64,000 nucleotides of DNA from Verrucomicrobiota bacterium (lineage in GTDB: Bacteria > Verrucomicrobiota > Verrucomicrobiia > Limisphaerales > UBA9464). The notes beneath the pieces were generated by a model that was given only the letters and a program-made list of their open reading frames with translations, was not told the origin of the DNA and searched no databases. How positions within the stretch are numbered: position 1 is the stretch's first letter; each line of letters starts with the position of its first letter. Below are positions 54,589 through 64,000 of the stretch, piece after piece. The stretch covers positions 1-64,000 of the forward strand of contig CANGKZ010000006.1 of NCBI GenBank assembly GCA_947454705.1, written 5' to 3'. The position numbers and the translations under genes were made by a program.

Positions 54589-54623
54589 AAGGGCCCGCCC
54601 CGCGGATCGCGGAGCGGGCCCTT
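54589..54623 (-). terminator. Strong hairpin terminator for the T2SS operon
   Basis: AAGGGCCCGC (54589-54598) pairs perfectly with GCGGGCCCTT (54614-54623). The loop has a further CCGCGGATCGCGG inner pairing. On the minus strand it is followed by AAGTTTTCC. It lies 47 bp after the stop of the secretin gene, so it ends the leftward operon. Confidence 0.8.
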
Positions 54624-54670: not shown

Positions 54671-55915
54671 TTACTTCTTGGCCGGCACGCGTTCGAGGAA
54701 GCGGTCGAGTTCCTTCTCGGAAACCGAGTTGGTGATCAAACCGGCCTGATGGGTTTCCGGTCCCGTGAGGGCGGCCATTTGCTGCGGGGCCTTGATGATG
54801 TGCGGGGTGAGGAAGATCAGCAGCTCGGTCTTGGCGTCGCTCTTGGCCTTCGACTTGAACAGGTTTCCGAGCAGCGGGATGTCACCGAGAATGGGGACCT
54901 TTTTGTCGGTGGTGGACTGGTTGTTGGAGATCAATCCGCCGATGACCACGGTCTGCGCATCCGGCGTCACCACCACGGTGTCGGCCGAGCGGACATTCAC
55001 GTACGGCGCGGAGACATCGGCCGAGAGCGACTGACGTTCGGTCGGGGAGACCGAGGAGATCTGCGGCTGCACGATCATTTCCACCAAGCCGTTGGCACCG
55101 ATGAACGGAGTGACGTTCAGGATGATGCCCACGTCGTTGTAGCTGACGTTGATGATGGGGATGGTGTTGCCGCCGGAGGTGGCGTAGGAGACGCCGCTGG
55201 GGAGCGGGACCTGCTGTCCGACGACGATGCGCGCGAGCTGGCCGTCGCGGGCGATGATCGAAGGACGTGAGAGCACCTGTGCCTTGCCGGAGGTGGCGAT
55301 GGCGCGGAGCGTCGCTTGGAAGTCAGAGCCTGCGATCTGGTAAATTCCACCCGTGCCCGAGCCGCTGCTGGAAGGAGTGAGGGCGGTGCCGAGCGGTTGT
55401 CCGAGGCCATTGAGGTTGGTCGCAACCCCGTTGACTCCGGCGAGGCCGAACACGGAACCGGCGCTGGTTCCCATGCCGTTTCCGATGTTGTTCTTGGCGA
55501 AGGAACCTTCGACACCAACGTCGGACGAATTGTTCCGCTGCACTTCCATGAACACGACCTTGATCAACACCTGCGGCTTGGGAACGTCGAGACTCGCGAT
55601 GACGTTGCTGATTTGCTGGCTGGTCTGGGCGTCGGTGATCACCACCAGGTTGTGGGTCTGGGGGTCGACCGAGATGAGGGCGCTGCCGACGGTGCCGTTC
55701 AGGTTGTAGTTGCCGGAGCTGGAGTTGCCGCCGCGGTTGTTTCCACCGCCGCCGCCGCCGCCAAATCCGCCACCCCCGAAGCCACCGCCGCCAAAGCCAC
55801 CACCTCCACCACCGCCGCCGCCCCGTTGTTGGGCGACGAGCTGGGAGCTGGCGACGCCGGACAGAATCAGCAGAAGCGCCAGGGTTCGCTTGAAGAGAGA
55901 GAAATCCGTTTTCAT
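54671..55915 (-). CDS. Type II secretion secretin, C-terminal half (separate gene)
   Basis: A 414-residue protein with its own signal peptide (about 1-29, TLALLLILSGVASSQLVAQ). A Gly-rich tract follows (31-58), then the second half of an N3-type domain (78-112, ISVDPQTHNLVVITDAQTSQ, IASLD) and the secretin channel (113-385): VLIKVVFMEVQ, SRPSIIARDGQLARIVVGQQ, VGIILNVTPFIG, TVVIGGLISN and KKVPILGDIPLLGNLFK. The C-terminal 30 residues may bind a pilotin. Canonical GspD is one protein of 600-700 residues; here its N-terminal domains are in the upstream gene. Last gene of the operon. Confidence 0.88.
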   Translation of the reverse strand: MKTDFSLFKRTLALLLILSGVASSQLVAQQRGGGGGGGGGFGGGGFGGGGFGGGGGGGNNRGGNSSSGNYNLNGTVGSALISVDPQTHNLVVITDAQTSQQISNVIASLDVPKPQVLIKVVFMEVQRNNSSDVGVEGSFAKNNIGNGMGTSAGSVFGLAGVNGVATNLNGLGQPLGTALTPSSSGSGTGGIYQIAGSDFQATLRAIATSGKAQVLSRPSIIARDGQLARIVVGQQVPLPSGVSYATSGGNTIPIINVSYNDVGIILNVTPFIGANGLVEMIVQPQISSVSPTERQSLSADVSAPYVNVRSADTVVVTPDAQTVVIGGLISNNQSTTDKKVPILGDIPLLGNLFKSKAKSDAKTELLIFLTPHIIKAPQQMAALTGPETHQAGLITNSVSEKELDRFLERVPAKK

Positions 55916-55944
55916 GGGAATGATCCGTTCGTGGGTCGGTTCGA

Positions 55945-57207
55945 TCAGAACAAGTTTCCGCCGCCCGTCCGTCCGCCGGAGCTTCCGCTGCCGAAGGAAC
56001 CGGAAGTGGTGGTGCCGGTGGTTGTGGTATTGTTCTGCTGACGTTGCATCAGCGCGCTGTTCTGCGAGGAAGTGGTCGATCCGCTGCGGCTGGTCGTGCT
56101 CGTCTGGAACATGTTCTGGAGCACTTGCAGCGCCTGCTGGGCGTCGCCGTTGGTCATGTGAAACACATAGACCTGCTGGTCGCGCACGGCCGGCACGTCG
56201 AGTTCCTTCACCATGCCTTCGATCTGGGACATCAAGTCCTTGGAGGCCGTGACGATCACCGAAGAGGTTCGGGGATCGGAGACGGCGAGCACCTGGCTGG
56301 CGCGCTGGATGCGTGCGTTCTGCGCCGCTGATCCGCCTGCAGCAGCTCCACCTCCACCCCCGCCGCCGCCCGCACCACCACCGCGGCCGCCGCCGCCAAA
56401 TCCACCAAAGCCGCCAAACCCACCGAAACCGCCAAAGCGAACCGGGGCCTGGCTGTTGTTCGCTCCTCCCCCGCTGGTGTTGCTCGGGAAGACGCTCGAC
56501 AGCGCGCTGGCGACATCGGCCGGGCTCGCGTGCTTGAGACGGAAGACGCGGATCTGGGTTTCAGCTTCAGCGCTGGTATCGATCGCTTTGATGATCTCCA
56601 CCATGTGCCGGATGTTGGCCTGGGTGTCCGTCATCACGATGGAATTTCCCGCGGTGTTGGCCACGAAGGTCGCCTGCGGGGAAATGAAGGTGTTGAGGTC
56701 CTTCACCAACTGATCGGCCTCGACGAACCGGATCGGAATGATCTGGGTGACGATCTCGTCGTTCTTGGGAATGGAGGCCGGGTTGTTGTTGACCTTGACC
56801 GGGATGTCGCGGGTTTTGGCCGTGACGCGGTCCACAATGGTGAGCGTCTTGCCGTCGCGAATCGCCGCGAGTCCGTTCTTGTTCAACACCGAGTTCAGCA
56901 GGTCCACGGCCTCATCACTGCTGACCGGCCGGCTGCTGATGATGTTGACGGTGCCCTTGGCCGGGGCATCGAGGACGATGATGAATCCCGCGGCCTCGCT
57001 CAGGTATTCGAGCACGAGCTCGAGGGGGGCGTTGCGGAAGTTGAGGCGAATCTCGTTGGGAGAAAAAGGGGCCGGGGACCTCGGGGTCTCGGCAGCTTTC
57101 GCGGCGGGTGCCGACGTTGCAGCGGGTGCCGCTTCCTGGGCCGCGGCCGAGGTCAGCCAACCGACGGCGCAAACCGCCGTCATGGTTCGGGTGATCGTAT
57201 GCTTCAT
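55945..57207 (-). CDS. Type II secretion secretin, N-terminal domains (separate gene)
   Basis: A 420-residue exported protein (signal 1-23). N0 52-128 (IRLNFRNAPLELVLEYLSEA, NKNGLAAIRDGKTLTIVD), N1 153-212 (IIPIRFVEADQLVKDLN), N2 219-340 with a Gly-rich loop (258-290, FGGFGG repeats), then the first half of N3 (344-369, VYVFHMTNGDAQQALQVLQN). It ends in a Ser/Thr/Gly tail (NNTTTTGTTTSGSFG...GGNLF). The break is inside N3, whose other half begins the next gene 29 bp downstream. Start overlaps the GspC-like stop by 4 bp. Confidence 0.88.
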   Translation of the reverse strand: MKHTITRTMTAVCAVGWLTSAAAQEAAPAATSAPAAKAAETPRSPAPFSPNEIRLNFRNAPLELVLEYLSEAAGFIIVLDAPAKGTVNIISSRPVSSDEAVDLLNSVLNKNGLAAIRDGKTLTIVDRVTAKTRDIPVKVNNNPASIPKNDEIVTQIIPIRFVEADQLVKDLNTFISPQATFVANTAGNSIVMTDTQANIRHMVEIIKAIDTSAEAETQIRVFRLKHASPADVASALSSVFPSNTSGGGANNSQAPVRFGGFGGFGGFGGFGGGGRGGGAGGGGGGGGAAAGGSAAQNARIQRASQVLAVSDPRTSSVIVTASKDLMSQIEGMVKELDVPAVRDQQVYVFHMTNGDAQQALQVLQNMFQTSTTSRSGSTTSSQNSALMQRQQNNTTTTGTTTSGSFGSGSSGGRTGGGNLF

Positions 57208-57938
57208 TTCATCTCCTGTTCTCGTTTTTTCAACAGCCGCTTCAAAATCTCATCTTCAGCCGGGGAACTTCCCGAGCTGCTGGCTCCCGATCCGGATCCC
57301 TCGGAGCTCGAACCACTGTCGCTGGACTTCACCGGATTAAAGGCCGTGGTGCTGCCGGTTGCCGATTCCCAGACGCCGTCGGAGTTCTTGCGAATCCGAC
57401 TGCCGATCTTGAGTTCGATCGGCGCGTTGGTGCCGGCGGAAAGCTTCACCGAGTTCTGATGAATCTCGGTGACGGTGTGGCCTGCGATTGTGCCATTGGC
57501 CTGGATGGCCTTGCGGTAGTCCGAGGTGTTGCCGTCGAAGAACGCAAACGCACCGCGCGAGTAGTTCATCACGCCGACAAGTCCGAATTCCGGTGCATCG
57601 GCCCGAACCGAAGGCTTCGGGGCGACCCGGCGCGGCGCTCCGGGAGTCCGGGGCTGGCGTTCGGGATCGAAAATGTTGCGATCCGAAATGGTCCGCGCCA
57701 CGGCGTTGAAATCGGTGGGGCCTCCGCGGGAAGGACCCGCGTTGGTGGACGAACCGCCACTGGAATTGGTGTCTCCGCGCTCGGAGGACCGGGAAGACCG
57801 CGGGCGATCCTCGCCGCGTCGGCGGGAGTCCTGCGCAAGGCTGGCCAGCACGCCGATCGCAAGCGCCGCCACGGTGCCGCCGACGAACCAGCCGATGCGA
57901 CGGCTCGGACCGCGTGATGGGGAGGGCGTCGAGTTCAT
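57204..57938 (-). CDS. GspC-like inner-membrane protein of the T2SS
   Basis: A 244-residue protein. One transmembrane segment (about 16-36, WFVGGTVAALAIGVLASLA), a Ser/Arg-rich linker, then an HR-like region with ISDRNIFDPERQPR and EFGLVGVMNYSRGAFAFFDG, and a Ser/Gly-rich C-terminus ending in a charged helix. This matches the topology and FDPxR motif of GspC-type proteins that link the inner-membrane platform to the secretin. No PDZ domain is seen. It overlaps genes on both sides by 4 bp. Confidence 0.7.
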   Translation of the reverse strand: MNSTPSPSRGPSRRIGWFVGGTVAALAIGVLASLAQDSRRRGEDRPRSSRSSERGDTNSSGGSSTNAGPSRGGPTDFNAVARTISDRNIFDPERQPRTPGAPRRVAPKPSVRADAPEFGLVGVMNYSRGAFAFFDGNTSDYRKAIQANGTIAGHTVTEIHQNSVKLSAGTNAPIELKIGSRIRKNSDGVWESATGSTTAFNPVKSSDSGSSSEGSGSGASSSGSSPAEDEILKRLLKKREQEMK

Positions 57939-58471
57939 GGTTTCGGGGAGGCGGCGAGCACGAGTCCGTTCAACTGAACCCCGAGGGTCAATTGCTGGCC
58001 CGAGGTGTCGCGGGTGCCGATCTGGACGGAATCCAACTTCAGCGTCATGGGGCCCTTTTCGATGCGGTAGAGAAGCTGCGTGAGGCTGGCCAGCGTGCCG
58101 GTGGCTTCCACGCGGCAGGCGAGGGTCTGGTGGTCATCGGCATCGCCCTTCCATTGCGGGATGCGATCCACGATTTCAGCTCCGGCCTCGCGCGACCAGG
58201 AATCGAGCGCGCGCAGAACCTTCTGTTCGGCGAGTGAGGGATCGGCGGGAAGCGAATTGGTGCGGATTCGATCCCAGTTGCTTCGCAGGGCGGGTTCGCG
58301 CTTGAGCAGTTGTTCGCCTTCGGTGACTTGCTTTCGAAGGACGGCGATCCGCGCGGAGCGGGAGGACCACCAGGCACCGAGCGGTTCGAAAATGGCCAGA
58401 TCGGCCACGTAGAGTCCCGCGGCGGCGACGGTCAGGATGACCAGGAAGCGTTGTCGGTTTTCAATCTTCAT
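57935..58471 (-). CDS. gspM: GspM/PilO-like T2SS platform protein
   Basis: A 178-residue protein with one transmembrane segment near 9-30 (LVILTVAAAGLYVADLAIF), a coiled segment (SARIAVLRKQVTEGEQLLKR) and a ferredoxin-like C-terminal domain (LACRVEATGTLASLTQLLYR, LTLGVQLNGLVLA). The fold and place match GspM/PilO. It starts at ATG 58471, overlapping the gspL stop by 4 bp; the longer frame upstream runs inside gspL. Confidence 0.8.
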   Translation of the reverse strand: MKIENRQRFLVILTVAAAGLYVADLAIFEPLGAWWSSRSARIAVLRKQVTEGEQLLKREPALRSNWDRIRTNSLPADPSLAEQKVLRALDSWSREAGAEIVDRIPQWKGDADDHQTLACRVEATGTLASLTQLLYRIEKGPMTLKLDSVQIGTRDTSGQQLTLGVQLNGLVLAASPKP

Positions 58472-59916
58472 GGCTTGGATCCTCCGTTCCACCGGAAGCT
58501 GAAATTGAACTGCAACGGAGCCTTGCCGCGAATTTGATCGCGGTGAAGACCGGTGACTCCGGGCGCTGCGTTGAGGCGGTCCATCATTTGCAAAATCGAT
58601 GCGCTGTCGGTCGCAGTGCCGGTGCAGACCACTTCGCCGGATTCGCGGATCTCGATGAGCTTGGCGGTGACATTCCCGTTTTCCGGAAACGCCAGGGACA
58701 TCGCCTGGAGAATTTGCAGGCTGCGGAAGGATTCGCTGGCCCACGGGCGGAACTGGCGGATCTGCTGCTGGGTCAGCTCCATTTGTCGGACCTTCGCCGA
58801 CATCTTCGACCAGCGGGATTCGAGCAGGGAGAGCTGGATCTGCTGAATGAGGAAGGCGAGCACCACCACGGCGGTGACCGCGCCGGCGATGACCCAAGTG
58901 GTGCGGAGACGGCCGGAGGTGTGTTTGGCGAGGAACTGTTCGAGCGCAGAGGGCCGGGGCGGCAGGAATTCCAAGCGAGCGGGGCTTCCGCTCAGGAATC
59001 GGACCGCCGCGGCAGCCGAAGGGGTGAACGGGGCGTTGGAGGGAAGGGCGGATCCGGCGTCGGGCGTCAGGACGGCTTCCACTGAGAATCCGCCGCTGGC
59101 GAGTCGGCTGCGCAATCCTGCGGCGAGCGCTTCGGCAAGGTCCCGGGGACCGAACACGCGGATCTTGCGAACGCGGCCTTCCAAGGCTTCGGGAAGCTGT
59201 CCGAGGGTGATCCGCAGCTCGCGGGCGACCGGTTCGGGACGGGCGGTGGTCGCATCGGGAGTGATTTCGAGCACTCCTTCGATCGAGCGCAGGGCGGCAA
59301 TGCCTCCCCCGGCGGTGATTTGAAACGCGGCCTGGCTGGAGCCGGGCGTGAGCAGGATGGCTGCGACACCTTCCTGTTCCTGCGTGCCGGGAGCCTGGAG
59401 TTCGGTGATCGCGGGCGAGTAACCCACGGGCTTCAGCTTCGCCGCGGCGAGGATCGGATCGAACGCCGCCGAGCGGGCCAGGGGCAGTGCGGCGAGGGTT
59501 ACGAAGCGTCCGCCGTTCGGGAGCACGCAGCGGGAATCGGCCACGCGGAGGCCGGCGATGTCGCTGTGGAATCCGCGTTCGGCCTCCAGTTGAAGCAGGC
59601 TGGCGGCATCGGCCTCGGGAAGATCAGGGAGCTCGGTCTGGGTGACCAGCAATCCCGCGCAGGGAACGGTCACCACGCAGTAGCGTTCGCGGATGCCGGC
59701 AGCGTCGAGCTGTTCGCGCAACGCACGGCCGGTGGCGACGGGATCTGCGGTTTCCGCGCCGGCGGGTAGCGTAAAACTCAGCGTCGGGCCGAGCTCCAGA
59801 GCGCCGTTGGTGAGCCGAAAGACCGCACCTTCGACCCGGGTGCCGTCGAACGACAGTCCCAGGACCGATTTTGGTTTCCGGCGTTGGCCGCTGCCCAGTT
59901 TCAAGAAATCGATCAT
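58468..59916 (-). CDS. gspL: GspL-like T2SS platform protein (PilM-N fusion type)
   Basis: A 482-residue protein. The first 320 residues are an actin-like PilM/GspL fold (SVLGLSFDGTRVEGAVF, CVVTVPCAGLLVTQTELPDL, AGLRVADSR). A transmembrane segment at about 340-358 follows, and then a PilN-like periplasmic domain (about 360-480, LQILQAMSLAFPENG, LNAAPGVTGLHRDQIRG). It recruits the GspE ATPase and pairs with GspM. It overlaps gspK by 4 bp. Confidence 0.85.
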   Translation of the reverse strand: MIDFLKLGSGQRRKPKSVLGLSFDGTRVEGAVFRLTNGALELGPTLSFTLPAGAETADPVATGRALREQLDAAGIRERYCVVTVPCAGLLVTQTELPDLPEADAASLLQLEAERGFHSDIAGLRVADSRCVLPNGGRFVTLAALPLARSAAFDPILAAAKLKPVGYSPAITELQAPGTQEQEGVAAILLTPGSSQAAFQITAGGGIAALRSIEGVLEITPDATTARPEPVARELRITLGQLPEALEGRVRKIRVFGPRDLAEALAAGLRSRLASGGFSVEAVLTPDAGSALPSNAPFTPSAAAAVRFLSGSPARLEFLPPRPSALEQFLAKHTSGRLRTTWVIAGAVTAVVVLAFLIQQIQLSLLESRWSKMSAKVRQMELTQQQIRQFRPWASESFRSLQILQAMSLAFPENGNVTAKLIEIRESGEVVCTGTATDSASILQMMDRLNAAPGVTGLHRDQIRGKAPLQFNFSFRWNGGSKP

Positions 59917-61277
59917 GGTGTGTTCATGGCCAGCGTCTGAGTGCGGACGCGCTCTCCCAGCGCCCAGCCGAGGCGGGTGAGGTCCTGTCGATGTATGATT
60001 TTCGGCGTACCATCACTGAGATCGAAAACGAATTTCACCCTCGCGTATCCCCGCCCGAACGGCCCCACGGCGGCCAGATCGGCGGAATACTGAAAGCTGC
60101 GTGTGGTAATGAGATCGCGCGCAGCCAAAGTGGTTACGACAGGATGTGTTGGACCGAGCGCCGTCACAATCCAGGCCACCGTGGAAAGCGAATTGGGATT
60201 CTGTTGCCGGAAGCTAATCAGGGTGGAGACGGCACTGTCCACGGATTGTGCGTTCTGCCCCGCGCCCACCAGCAGGGCGGTCAACACCTCGCGGCTGGCC
60301 GTGTTGATGTTCACGCGGCCGTAGGTGTAGGTGTTGGTCGTGGTGCTGAGATTCGGATAGATCCGCGAAAAATCATCGGCGCTAAGCCCTGAGCTCAAAT
60401 AAAACCGGAGCAGCGTGGGAAAATTCGGGTTCGCATTCGGACGGAACCCGAGCTGGTTCATGATCTGCGTCGTGCGGGAGGATCCAAACGCGGTGTTGAG
60501 CAGCGCCTGGATTTGAGCGCGCGTGTTGACGTTCGTAAGCGATGAACCGTCGGAATGAAAATTGGGTTCGCGCGTGAACACCGTGGTGGTTTCGAGCAGG
60601 CCTGGCGTGGGTTCGCGGGAACCGGAGAAGCTGCGTTCCTCCGGATCGAGCACGCCGTTGCGGTTGAGGTCGTCGCCCGTGAGGTAGTCGAGCGTCAGAC
60701 CGCTGATCAGCCGGAGTTCCTCCACCGATTCAAACGGTGCGTGTTTGGCGGTGTAGCCCAGGCTGGTGTAGCCGAGCTCCATGGTGCCGTTGGTGCTGCG
60801 CCAGTCCACAATGGCCGCGGCGAGATCACTGGTCATGCCCGGCAGCGAGGCCAGGGCGTTGGAATTCGCGCGGTTCAGATTCAATCGCCCGCCTTCATCG
60901 CGAAGGCCAAACACGGGCTCGGTCACTGCGTTGGCCGTGGTGTTGCGGCCGAGGAGCCAGACCTTGGATTCCCCAATCTGCAACGCTTCGCCGAGGTAGG
61001 TGTTGTTGGTCACCAGCACGCCATTGGTGACGGAATTGGAGAGCACCCAGCTCACGTATCGGGCGGCGCCCTGGATGGCTTGTTCGGCTGCGATTCGGGA
61101 GGCGTGATTGCCCGAGGCCCGCAGCTCCAGGCTCATGGAACCCGCGAAATACAGGGTGAGGCTGATCAATCCCACCGTGACCCACAGGACAATGATCAGC
61201 ACCGATCCGGACACACGCGGAGAGGGGCGTCGTGTATTTGCCGGGGGCAGGGACTGGATTGGAGAGGCGATGCGCAT
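59913..61277 (-). CDS. gspK: T2SS minor pseudopilin GspK
   Basis: A 454-residue protein. The N-terminal pseudopilin-type helix is GSVLIIVLWVTVGLISLTLY (about 24-43), followed by LELRASGNHASRIAAEQA. The helix-hairpin-helix region LNLNRANSNALASLPGMTSDLAAAIVDWR (key part NRANSNALASLPGM) and the second NTASREVLTALLVG match GspK. Asp-rich loops such as DDLNRNGVLDPEE suggest calcium binding. GspK caps the pseudopilus tip. The start is 2 bp after the gspJ stop. Confidence 0.88.
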   Translation of the reverse strand: MRIASPIQSLPPANTRRPSPRVSGSVLIIVLWVTVGLISLTLYFAGSMSLELRASGNHASRIAAEQAIQGAARYVSWVLSNSVTNGVLVTNNTYLGEALQIGESKVWLLGRNTTANAVTEPVFGLRDEGGRLNLNRANSNALASLPGMTSDLAAAIVDWRSTNGTMELGYTSLGYTAKHAPFESVEELRLISGLTLDYLTGDDLNRNGVLDPEERSFSGSREPTPGLLETTTVFTREPNFHSDGSSLTNVNTRAQIQALLNTAFGSSRTTQIMNQLGFRPNANPNFPTLLRFYLSSGLSADDFSRIYPNLSTTTNTYTYGRVNINTASREVLTALLVGAGQNAQSVDSAVSTLISFRQQNPNSLSTVAWIVTALGPTHPVVTTLAARDLITTRSFQYSADLAAVGPFGRGYARVKFVFDLSDGTPKIIHRQDLTRLGWALGERVRTQTLAMNTP

Positions 61278-61279
61278 CT

Positions 61280-61990
61280 TCAGCCTCCCGCGGTGCTGGT
61301 GGAATTGGTGCGCGATTGCGAATCAATCGGCACGAGCAGTTCGATCGGATCCGTGCGAACGGCGCCGGGTTGACCCAGAAGGACCCGGACCCGCACCGCG
61401 ATCGGCAGATTCGTGTTCACCGACGAGGTGTCGGTGGTGTCCCAATTTTGGATCCACTGGGTGCCGTCGAAGCACTCGACTTCGATTCGCGAGACATTGC
61501 GGACGAGCAGCTGATCCTCGACTTCCGGGGTGGAGAGCGAGAGCAGGTTGCGGCAGACCCCGCGGTAGAGGTCCAGGGATTGACTGCCGGATTCGGTGGA
61601 ATTGCGAAGGCCGTAGCTGACGCGCTGGATATCGCCCCAGGGTTCCTGGGCCTTCAGCTGTCCGGTCGATGTGAAGAGCTCAAGATTGACCGTTTGCGCG
61701 GTACCGACGCTGTTGACGGTGCCGGCGCGAAAACTGCCGGAGAGGACGCCGGAGGACTTCGGTGTGACCGCGCATTGAAGATCACGCTTGAGGGTATCGA
61801 GGGCGAGTTCGAGCGGGGCGGCGGTATCGACGGCATCCGAAACGGTGTTGCGAAGCCGGAGTGCGGAGAAGAAGGCGGCCTGGGTCACCCCGAGGATCAG
61901 CGCGGCGGCTCCGATCGCGAGCAGCAGTTCGATCAGCGTGAAGGCGGATCGTTCGCGTCGGCTTGTGCGCTGATGGGGGAAGCGCGTCAT
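61280..61990 (-). CDS. gspJ: T2SS minor pseudopilin GspJ-like
   Basis: A 236-residue pseudopilin with the type III prepilin motif SAFTLIELLLAIGAAALILG (cleavage A|F, Glu at +5) and a beta-rich C-terminal domain (LDLYRGVCRNLLSLSTPEVE, VSRIEVECFDGTQWIQN). Position between gspI and gspK, and length, support GspJ. ATG 61990 overlaps the gspI stop by 4 bp. Confidence 0.82.
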   Translation of the reverse strand: MTRFPHQRTSRRERSAFTLIELLLAIGAAALILGVTQAAFFSALRLRNTVSDAVDTAAPLELALDTLKRDLQCAVTPKSSGVLSGSFRAGTVNSVGTAQTVNLELFTSTGQLKAQEPWGDIQRVSYGLRNSTESGSQSLDLYRGVCRNLLSLSTPEVEDQLLVRNVSRIEVECFDGTQWIQNWDTTDTSSVNTNLPIAVRVRVLLGQPGAVRTDPIELLVPIDSQSRTNSTSTAGG

Positions 61991-62433
61991 CGACTTGTGG
62001 ACGAAGAGGAGGACGTGGAAGAGCCCGTGGAGGTAACGGGCGGATTTCCGAGAGTGCTGATTTTCACCGACGCGGGCTGGCCCTGGGCCTGGAAGCGAAC
62101 TTCGGCGGTGAGCAGGGGAAGGTCGTTCTGGATCCAGTTTTCGCGGGTGATGGTCCACTGGTACTCGACCGAATTCTCCGTGACGGTGCCATTCTGCGAA
62201 CCGGAGGCGGTGTTGGTGTAGATGATCGATTCGTTGAGCACGCGATCGGCGATTCGAGCGGCTACGCCGCGTCGTGCGGCGACGGTTCCGGCCCGGGCCG
62301 CGATGTGCAGGGCCTCGACTGCCGAGGGAATCACGATCGCCAAAAACAGCAGCGCCGCCAGCGTCTCCGCCAGCGTGAACGCATCGCACTGCCGCGTGCG
62401 GCGTGGATTACGGGGTGCTGGTGCGAACTTCAT
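61987..62433 (-). CDS. gspI: T2SS minor pseudopilin GspI-like
   Basis: A 148-residue pseudopilin. Prepilin motif DAFTLAETLAALLFLAIVIP (A|F cleavage, Glu at +5) and a short domain with ARIADRVLNESI and VEYQWTITRENWI. The Ser/Thr-rich C-terminus (TSTGSSTSSSSSTSR) is unusual. Overlaps gspH by 26 bp and gspJ by 4 bp. Confidence 0.8.
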   Translation of the reverse strand: MKFAPAPRNPRRTRQCDAFTLAETLAALLFLAIVIPSAVEALHIAARAGTVAARRGVAARIADRVLNESIIYTNTASGSQNGTVTENSVEYQWTITRENWIQNDLPLLTAEVRFQAQGQPASVKISTLGNPPVTSTGSSTSSSSSTSR

Positions 62434-62986
62434 AATGCCTCCGGTCGGAGCCTTCGACGATCCACAGGCTGCCACCGACTTCATCGACCAGCTGAATAGC
62501 TTCCGGGCTGTCCTCATCCACCGACCCATCCGGCAGCATCCGGATGGCCGGCATATTGCGCTGGTTCTGCGGTTTCACGCCGGGAAGCTTCACCTTCTTG
62601 GGGCTGTTCGGCGTTTGGCCGATGAGCTTGTTTACCGTGGTGAAGGACACCTGAATTCCAGGATCGGTACTGAACTCGATCGCGTTGGAATCGCCGTCCT
62701 TGCCGGGCGTTTCGCGTTCCACGCCGTAGCGCCCGTTGGAGGTGTCGAGCCAGAGGATCATGGTCATGCCCTCGGAAATGGCCCGCGAGCGCGCGGCGTG
62801 GGTGAGCGCGAGGATCCGGCGGGCCTCGGCTTCGAGAGCCCGGGCCCGGATGAATCCGCCGAGCTTCGGCGACACCATACTGACCGCGACGACCAGCAGC
62901 GCCAGAACGAGAACCATCTCGATCAGGCTGAACCCGCGCCGGTCGGAGCGGCGGGGGTTACTTGGTTGACCAGTTCCCAAAATCAT
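62408..62986 (-). CDS. gspH: T2SS minor pseudopilin GspH-like
   Basis: A 192-residue pseudopilin with the motif RGFSLIEMVLVLALLVVAVS (G|F cleavage) and ALEAEARRILALTHAARSRA, then a GspH-type domain (GMTMILWLDTSNGRYGVERE, IRMLPDGSVDEDSPEAIQLV). ATG 62986 overlaps gspG by 29 bp. Confidence 0.82.
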   Translation of the reverse strand: MILGTGQPSNPRRSDRRGFSLIEMVLVLALLVVAVSMVSPKLGGFIRARALEAEARRILALTHAARSRAISEGMTMILWLDTSNGRYGVERETPGKDGDSNAIEFSTDPGIQVSFTTVNKLIGQTPNSPKKVKLPGVKPQNQRNMPAIRMLPDGSVDEDSPEAIQLVDEVGGSLWIVEGSDRRHYEVRTSTP

Positions 62987-63428
62987 CCTCGGTGCCGGCC
63001 TTGCCGTCGGGTCCGACGGACGACAGGTCATAGGAGTTGGCGTTGTGCCGGCCGGGCTGGGCGTAAACGTAGTCGAATCCCCAGGGATCCTGCGGGAGCT
63101 TGTCGAGGTACGGTCCGCGCCAGTTGCGCGCATCGCGCGGCTGCTGGATCAGGTCGCCGAGATTCTTGGGGTAAAACCCGTTGTCCACCTCGTAGGCGTC
63201 AAGCGAGGTCTTGATGGCGGCGATGTCGGCCTTGGCGGCGGCCTGGCGGGCCTGTTCGGAGCGGCCCATCATTTTTGGTACCACCAGCGCGGCGAGAATG
63301 CCGATGATGGTGATCACCAGGAGCATTTCAACGAGCGTGAAGGCGCGTCGAAGCAGGCGCTGGCGGCGGAGGGAGGCCACGGGGGAGGAAATCGGAAGGC
63401 GGGTGCGTTGGGCGGGGATGGAGCTCAT
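62958..63428 (-). CDS. gspG: T2SS major pseudopilin
   Basis: A 156-residue protein. Leader of about 29 residues, then RRAFTLVEMLLVITIIGILA (A|F cleavage), QAAAKADIAAIKTSLDAYEV, DNGFYP and the GspG signatures DPWGFDYVYAQPG and SVGPDGKAGTEDDFGNW with the calcium-binding loop. It is the major pseudopilin of the pilus. Most GspG have G|F; this one has A|F. It lies 13 bp after gspF. Confidence 0.92.
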   Translation of the reverse strand: MSSIPAQRTRLPISSPVASLRRQRLLRRAFTLVEMLLVITIIGILAALVVPKMMGRSEQARQAAAKADIAAIKTSLDAYEVDNGFYPKNLGDLIQQPRDARNWRGPYLDKLPQDPWGFDYVYAQPGRHNANSYDLSSVGPDGKAGTEDDFGNWSTK

Positions 63429-63441
63429 GGGGCGCGGTGGG

Positions 63442-64000
63442 TCATTTGATATGGTCCTGCAATGAGAAGATGGGCAGCAGCATGCCGATGAAAATGAATC
63501 CGATGAAGCCTGCAATGAGGAACAACATCAGGGGTTCGGCCAGGGCGACGGCGGCCTTCAGGTTTCGGTCGAGTTCGCTCTCGGTGACGTTCGCAATGCG
63601 GATCAATTCGATGTCGAGTCGTCCGCTTTCCTCGGCCACGGAGATCATTTCCATCACCGATCCGCTGAAGAGCGTGCGGCACTCGGCGAGGCTTTGGCCG
63701 AGGCGTCCGCCCTGCTGAACTTGGTCGATGGATTTCGACACGGCATCGACGAGGATCTGATTTCCGATCGAACGGCGCGAAACGTTGAGCGCCTGCACCA
63801 GCGGGACGTCGGCCCCGATGAGCGTGCCGAGCATGCGGCAGAAGCGGGCCATGGCGAAGCGGGCGCTGAGCGGTCCGACGATCGGAGCCTTGAGCGTGAG
63901 CCCCTCCCACACGCGGCGTCCATCGGCCGAAATGAACCACGTGCGAAGCAAAAACCCGGCGAGAACAAATCCGCCGAACACCAGGAGTCCGTACGAACGG
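63442..64000 (-). CDS. gspF: T2SS inner-membrane platform protein GspF, partial
   Basis: The C-terminal 185 or so codons are here; the frame stays open to the window edge (RSYGLLVFGGF...), so the start lies beyond 64000. It shows GspF/PilC motifs: LKAPIVGPLSARFAMARFCR, MLGTLIGADVPLVQALNVSR, SLAECRTLFSGSVMEMISV and a terminal membrane segment (LAEPLMLFLIAGFIGFIFIG) ending QDHIK. gspE is expected just outside. Confidence 0.9.
   Translation of the reverse strand, partial: RSYGLLVFGGFVLAGFLLRTWFISADGRRVWEGLTLKAPIVGPLSARFAMARFCRMLGTLIGADVPLVQALNVSRRSIGNQILVDAVSKSIDQVQQGGRLGQSLAECRTLFSGSVMEMISVAEESGRLDIELIRIANVTESELDRNLKAAVALAEPLMLFLIAGFIGFIFIGMLLPIFSLQDHIK

Follow-up and report, generated by a model that had tools for sequence, protein, structure and literature searches.

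The secretin GspD of a type II secretion system (T2SS), which as a rule forms a ring-shaped outer-membrane channel from a single kind of protein, is encoded in this Verrucomicrobiota genome by two adjacent genes, designated here D1 and D2, whose products carry separate signal peptides and are divided within the N3 domain. The division is found in almost all of the related loci compared, the split secretins group together in a tree, and the two halves have diverged in parallel. In our judgement the arrangement probably goes back to an old fission of gspD, with the halves completing N3 in trans; this completion is supported, not proven, by the comparisons presented below.

Domain Organization of the Split Secretin

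In the window, i.e., the whole stretch of 64,000 nt that was analysed, D1 and D2 are separated by 29 nt and are the last genes of a T2SS operon on the minus strand, as read from the open reading frames (ORFs).

54671..55915, minus strand: D2, the C-terminal half of GspD, with its own signal peptide, a Gly-rich linker, the second half of N3 and the channel (ORF, profile matches, model)
55945..57207, minus strand: D1, the N-terminal half of GspD, with a signal peptide, N0, N1, N2, the first half of N3 and a Ser/Thr/Gly tail (ORF, profile matches, model)
57204..57938, minus strand: gspC-like gene, overlapping the D1 start by 4 nt (NF041515 GspC, E 1.5e-6, below its cut-off)
58468..64000, minus strand: remainder of the T2SS operon in the window, with GspL-, GspK- and pseudopilin-like genes followed by gspF, which runs off the end

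The domain search of the operon returned strong T2SSF and T2SSE matches, the latter placing gspE just past the window end, and a GspK match (NF037980) below its cut-off; the names of the remaining genes rest on gene order and prepilin-like starts. This company of T2SS genes (E, F, pseudopilins, K and C) is the one expected around a gspD. A terminator-like inverted repeat, read by eye, lies at 54589-54623, directly 3' of D2.

The D1 protein (420 aa) contains the GspD N0 domain and Secretin_N domains of Pfam, and its parts were assigned as follows.

56848..57045, minus strand: N0 domain, D1 residues 55-120 (PF21305, E 1.7e-13; Z 11.9 to ETEC GspD N0, 4jtm_A)
56563..56754, minus strand: N1 domain, D1 residues 152-215 (AF2 pLDDT about 90; limits set by eye from the model and alignment)
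56188..56559, minus strand: N2 domain, D1 residues 217-340 (PF03958, best stretch 220-340)
56101..56181, minus strand: N3a, the first half of N3 with beta1 and alpha1, D1 residues 343-369 (from its place in the GspD model)
56041..56064, minus strand: tail motif QNSALMQR, D1 residues 382-389 (consensus Q-N-[SND]-[AP]-L-x-x-R)

The D2 protein (414 aa) is composed of the following elements.

55832..55915, minus strand: signal peptide, D2 residues 1-28 (sequence reading, site ...QLVA/QQ by eye; helix 6-26 in the model)
55724..55825, minus strand: Gly-rich linker, D2 residues 31-64 (sequence reading)
55577..55690, minus strand: N3b, the second half of N3 with beta2-beta3-alpha2, D2 residues 76-113 (PF03958 positions 31-69 of 69)
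54791..55300, minus strand: Secretin channel domain, D2 residues 206-375 (PF00263, E 7.7e-48, positions 2-169 of 169)

The two proteins are complementary on the 600-position GspD profile TIGR02517, D1 covering positions 1-300 with 185.3 bits and D2 positions 301-600 with 254.3 bits, so that neither reaches the cut-off of 351 bits for a GspD on a single polypeptide. The order N0-N1-N2-N3-secretin is given by D1 and D2 jointly and by neither alone. The sole Secretin_N match in D2 (residues 77-115, E 3.3e-4, under the curated cut-off) comprises only positions 31-69 of the 69 in the domain and is followed by the Secretin domain, which puts the cut in the alpha1-beta2 loop of N3. The original prediction, based on the nucleotide sequence and its ORFs, had described an upstream gene stopping after the first N3 half in a Ser/Thr/Gly tail and a downstream gene with its own signal peptide, a Gly tract, the second N3 half and the channel; both descriptions are confirmed. 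Two features can be added to them, the conserved motif in the D1 tail listed above and a Gly-rich loop within N2 of D1.

AlphaFold (AF2) models of the single chains agree with this partition. In the D1 model (31 sequences, mean pLDDT 69.9) helix 356-369 of N3a is predicted while beta1 is unformed, and confidence drops there from 90 to 62-74, which is what half a domain should show; the Gly-rich loop of N2, at about residues 245-293, has pLDDT below 50. In the D2 model (34 sequences, mean pLDDT 68.2) N3b forms strands 79-83 and 90-93 and helix 96-109, i.e., a beta-beta-alpha unit. On PulD (6hcg_A), the D1 model superposes over residues 27-306 (Z 15.2, rmsd 6.1), the D2 model over 277-611 (Z 12.8, rmsd 9.6). 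On ETEC GspD (5zdh_A), D1 from residue 149 on covers 100-285 (Z 9.9, rmsd 5.4) and D2 covers 285-605 (Z 14.1, rmsd 6.9). With rmsd values of 5 to 10, these superpositions indicate register and not atomic fit.

Conservation of the Split

The loci for comparison, 250 in number, were gathered by likeness to D2; they include the window and repeatedly fetched genomes and hold 188 distinct D2 sequences. A locus was scored as split when a D1-profile match above 80 bits lay in a separate ORF on the same strand. This was the case in 247 of the 250; the other three are cut by contig ends, and no fused relative was found among the 250, which answers the comparison with relatives for fused forms that had been proposed with the original prediction. 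Ten further loci (L133-L142), outside this set, are one-chain secretins chosen deliberately. In 183 of the 187 loci measured, D1 and D2 lie 4-202 nt apart (median 38), and in the remaining four the distance is 335-934 nt; the large gap of locus L121 is due to its D1 being in two ORFs, and in L071 and L200 about 800 nt separate D1 and D2. A hydrophobic N-terminus was recognised in 187 of the 188 D2 proteins, the odd one possibly reflecting a wrong start choice; start codons were picked by a script favouring hydrophobic starts, and D1 passes the same measure in 151 of 187 loci. The length of the Gly-rich linker of D2 differs widely between relatives in the alignment.

D2 or its alignment has matches in 38 of 58 near genomes at E 1e-40, a count that takes in the genome studied here and secretins of other kinds. 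In the order, 196 of 293 genomes have one at E 1e-90 (counted by score, with the fetched ones inspected), and in the class 35 of 189 do above 280 bits. Such matches are rare in a draw from the phylum (11 of 240 genomes, E 1e-50), six of the 11 having the split pair (G000, G159, G204, G213, G293, G332). Among the best 80 of 564 confirmed stretches from named genomes, nearly all of them metagenome assemblies, D1 lies upstream of D2 in 79, and the last begins at a contig end. Of these 80 titles, 75 name Verrucomicrobiota or a subgroup of it, three Omnitrophota, one Proteobacteria and one only a "bacterium"; some of these titles appear mislabelled.

Evidence on a Proposed Contact between the Halves

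The tail of D1 is low-complexity except for its motif. The pattern [LI]xxR is present in 180 of the 188 D1 tails, as compared with a mean of 30.5 and a maximum of 42 in 200 shuffles, and L386 and R389 are nearly invariant in the alignment. Four of the eight tails without the pattern have F in place of L, and four similar tails have no motif; the count scored L121 on a wrong ORF, and its true tail has LxxR. In the AF2 model the motif region forms a short helix (385-392) of low confidence.

Coupling between D1 and D2 was analysed in 186 of the 188 distinct pairs (111.5 effective sequences); L020 and L121, with a D1 divided over two ORFs, were excluded. In the mean-field analysis N3a x N3b was the densest of 30 D1 x D2 blocks above z 3, with 14.6 couplings per 1000, followed by N2a and the channel segment C3 with 12.4; at pseudocounts of 0.3 and 0.7 it ranked first of 25. 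By the mean of the top ten couplings N0 x N3b, a larger block, exceeded N3a x N3b (4.59 against 4.14). Within D1, the control N1a x N1b reached 43.2 per 1000, whereas N2a x N2b was weak (7.9). After smoothing, the N3a x N3b map showed a correlation of 0.21 with the averaged N1 and N2 maps from within D1, above every circular shift, as against -0.11 to 0.05 for four mismatched control blocks; unsmoothed, it barely correlated (0.06 with N2, 0.01 with N1). Mutual information at z > 3 placed N3a x N3b only 21st of 25, with almost no block carrying signal, while its top-ten mean still made N3b, slightly, the best D2 partner of N3a. An earlier run with 116 pairs gave the same picture. Shuffling the pairing reduced all coupling blocks, a treatment that removes shared ancestry too. 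Taken as sequence covariation, these results modestly suggest that N3a prefers N3b among the D2 segments, with weak backing from mutual information.

The proposed mechanism starts from a T2SS secretin gene that would have been cut long ago within the alpha1-beta2 loop of N3. The two products, encoded in one operon, would be exported separately by their own signal peptides, and in the periplasm beta1-alpha1 of D1 would pack on beta2-beta3-alpha2 of D2, each N3 in the ring thus being built from two chains. Completion of N3 in this way could hold the N0-N2 rings under the channel, where they would be able to contact GspC. For the LxxR motif of the D1 tail, D2 or the N3 ring is the probable docking site. 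The two chains are presumably present in equal numbers, and the assembly presumably acts in secretion.

An alternative that we consider unlikely, if still worth weighing, is that N3 is not rebuilt at all: D1 would form a separate N0-N2 adaptor stack joined to the channel through its tail motif and the linkers, and the half N3 of D2 would have become self-sufficient through remodelling. Two separate chains whose linkers are long and flexible fit such a stack, the tail motif could be the sole contact, and the separate N-terminal protein of the rhizobial type III secretion system (T3SS) has been proposed as a linker (described in PMC3459982). Against it, both halves of N3 are recognisable at complementary positions in the alignments, and they are, by density, the most strongly coupled of the D1 x D2 blocks. 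Of the two mechanisms offered in the original prediction, association of the halves has thus gained modest sequence support through the N3a x N3b coupling, and the adaptor ring is likewise unproven.

Probable Common Ancestry of D1 and D2

A quick tree of 111 sequences, built on the N3b-channel region without a mixture model and rooted on 13 one-chain secretins, placed all 98 split sequences on one side of the branch separating them from the one-chain forms (SH-aLRT 99). Long branches were flagged, and two other secretins of the genome (contigs C2 and C3) were not included. The identity matrices of D1 and D2 correlate with r 0.70 over 186 pairs, while 200 permutations gave at most 0.06. That D1 and D2 are of different origin, which is the published history of the rhizobial pair (as given in PMC3459982), is therefore very improbable here: both halves fit TIGR02517 end to end, adjoin one another and diverge together.

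The genome has other secretins (six PF00263 matches), and the original prediction had named a complete second GspD elsewhere as a finding that would speak against it. A one-chain GspD-like secretin does exist on contig C11, in a 941-codon frame with N0, five Secretin_N domains and Secretin, adjoining GspK- and GspL-like genes. It scores 149.8 bits to the D2 profile, as against at least 370 for the split sequences listed, and falls outside the split group in the tree; being a different secretin, it does not turn the split pair into a relic. The idea that the C11 protein is the actual secretin in place of the pair was rejected, since it lies outside the split group and has a cluster of its own, a second T2SS-like one (L039:7622-16001). 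It is hardly probable that D1 mainly serves another secretin such as this one, leaving D2 as a channel without N0-N2, as the C11 protein has an N0 and five Secretin_N domains of its own and D1 is present alongside D2 in 247 of 250 loci.

Among the other secretins of the genome (G000), the one on contig C8 (L273:449-12379, minus strand) is very unusual, a giant single chain of 3976 aa in which 36 Secretin_N stretches precede or accompany a lone Secretin domain; 11 other near genomes have matches in similarly long frames (2455-4517 codons). On contig C2 (L042:6604-10401, minus strand) a BlaR1-type M56 peptidase (residues 9-304) is joined to a Secretin domain (1076-1255) in a protein of 1265 aa.

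A hidden fusion by frameshift, read-through or assembly error can practically be dismissed: the D2 frame is open upstream beyond the D1 stop in the window (629 codons) and reaches upstream of that stop in 83 of 187 loci, but it is closed at or past the D1 stop in the other 104, and the hydrophobic, signal-like D2 start would fall inside any fusion. The frame of D2 relative to that of D1 is 0, 1 or 2 in 66, 52 and 69 of the 187 loci, and this mixture means that there is no conserved frameshift or recoding signal. Recoding and sequencing error, named in the original prediction as findings that would refute it, were rejected on these grounds together with the absence of fused loci, in line with the earlier claim that the split is no recent frameshift.

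Elsewhere in the phylum, in other classes, GspDs on one chain are frequent, and 63 of 240 genomes have a match above the GspD cut-off. In seven one-chain secretins whose N3 pattern was readable (it was unreadable in five others), the alpha1-beta2 loop is short in five and long in two, L137 and the C11 secretin of this genome. The long loops show that this loop tolerates large inserts, a tolerance that may have enabled the cut.

Two lineages show a further division of D1. In L121 (1719-4761) GspD is in three parts: D1 is divided into two ORFs 36 nt apart, followed by D2. The first ORF encodes a signal peptide, N0 and N1 and stops halfway through the next N-domain; the second encodes a signal peptide, a Gly-rich linker, the remainder of that domain, another N-domain and N3a. 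Genome G037 (L020, L148, L274; L274:2258-5441) has this layout as well, with a signal-like start on each piece. G037 belongs to a different part of the tree from L121, and its sister L065 keeps D1 in one piece. Three exported chains were thus found in two of the 188 distinct loci; in six more D1 is cut by the stretch end, making them uninformative. A search of the order with D1 does not separate two-part from three-part forms, since the match is interrupted at Gly-rich loops. Most simply, cuts of one kind, in the same N-domain loop and with acquisition of a new signal peptide, would have arisen more than once, and repeats in the Gly-rich loops may drive such cutting through recombination.

Comparison with Known Systems

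The pore of the bacterial T2SS has been described as 15-16 copies of one protein, GspD (in the account of PMC8134430). D1 and D2 share the domain order and the T2SS operon with canonical GspDs (PulD 6hcg, ETEC GspD 5zdh, XcpQ 5wln) and differ from them in comprising two chains, with two signal peptides and long low-complexity linkers at the cut. The pair is therefore best classified as a variant GspD that has the domain set and operon of a GspD but lacks its single chain. In the open-licence literature searched, no bacterial T2SS was found described as having a split GspD, including one cut in N3.

Three systems bear resemblance. In the rhizobial T3SS, N-domains and channel are likewise encoded by two genes, RhcC1/RhcC2 (HrcIIC1/HrcIIC2); as described in PMC3459982 and PMC3574062, these belong to a T3SS, are non-adjacent in the described clusters, and the C-terminal protein derives from Tad secretins with a BON domain. 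D2 has no BON match to E 0.1 in Pfam, is of GspD type and lies in a T2SS operon; the rhizobial pair represents a replacement, D1/D2 probably a fission. The mitochondrial GspD and GspDN1-3 of some protists are a T2SS-derived GspD in several polypeptides, of which GspDN2 and GspDN3 are the C- and N-terminal halves of one N-domain and GspDN1 gave a yeast two-hybrid signal with GspD (PMC8134430). D1 and D2 each carry half of N3, and an interaction between them is suggested indirectly, by sequence coupling. The mitochondrial set differs in being eukaryotic, in more pieces and with a shorter channel part, and the same account reports that its bacterial N-domain equivalents are not assignable. Fission in the same machine superfamily is also known for the platform protein TadB/TadC, an inner-membrane protein with one T2SSF domain per piece, so that the cut, as described in PMC6668835, is not intradomain.

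Implications for Secretin Assembly

The picture we would put forward, by a narrow balance of judgement, is of a hetero-oligomeric group of bacterial type II secretins in which N3 is shared in trans, with a further N-domain so shared in the three-chain lineages, in which fission recurs at like loops together with a new signal peptide, and whose rings can be built from separately exported parts. Gene finders requiring one GspD above the cut-off may overlook such systems. Both the coupling of N0-N2 to the channel and the assembly of the N3 ring could be probed naturally in the split secretin. If the two-chain, and more rarely three-chain, form is indeed conserved, then periplasmic rings and channel could be produced, exported and put together as separate components, and a small domain would prove shareable between chains in a large ring.
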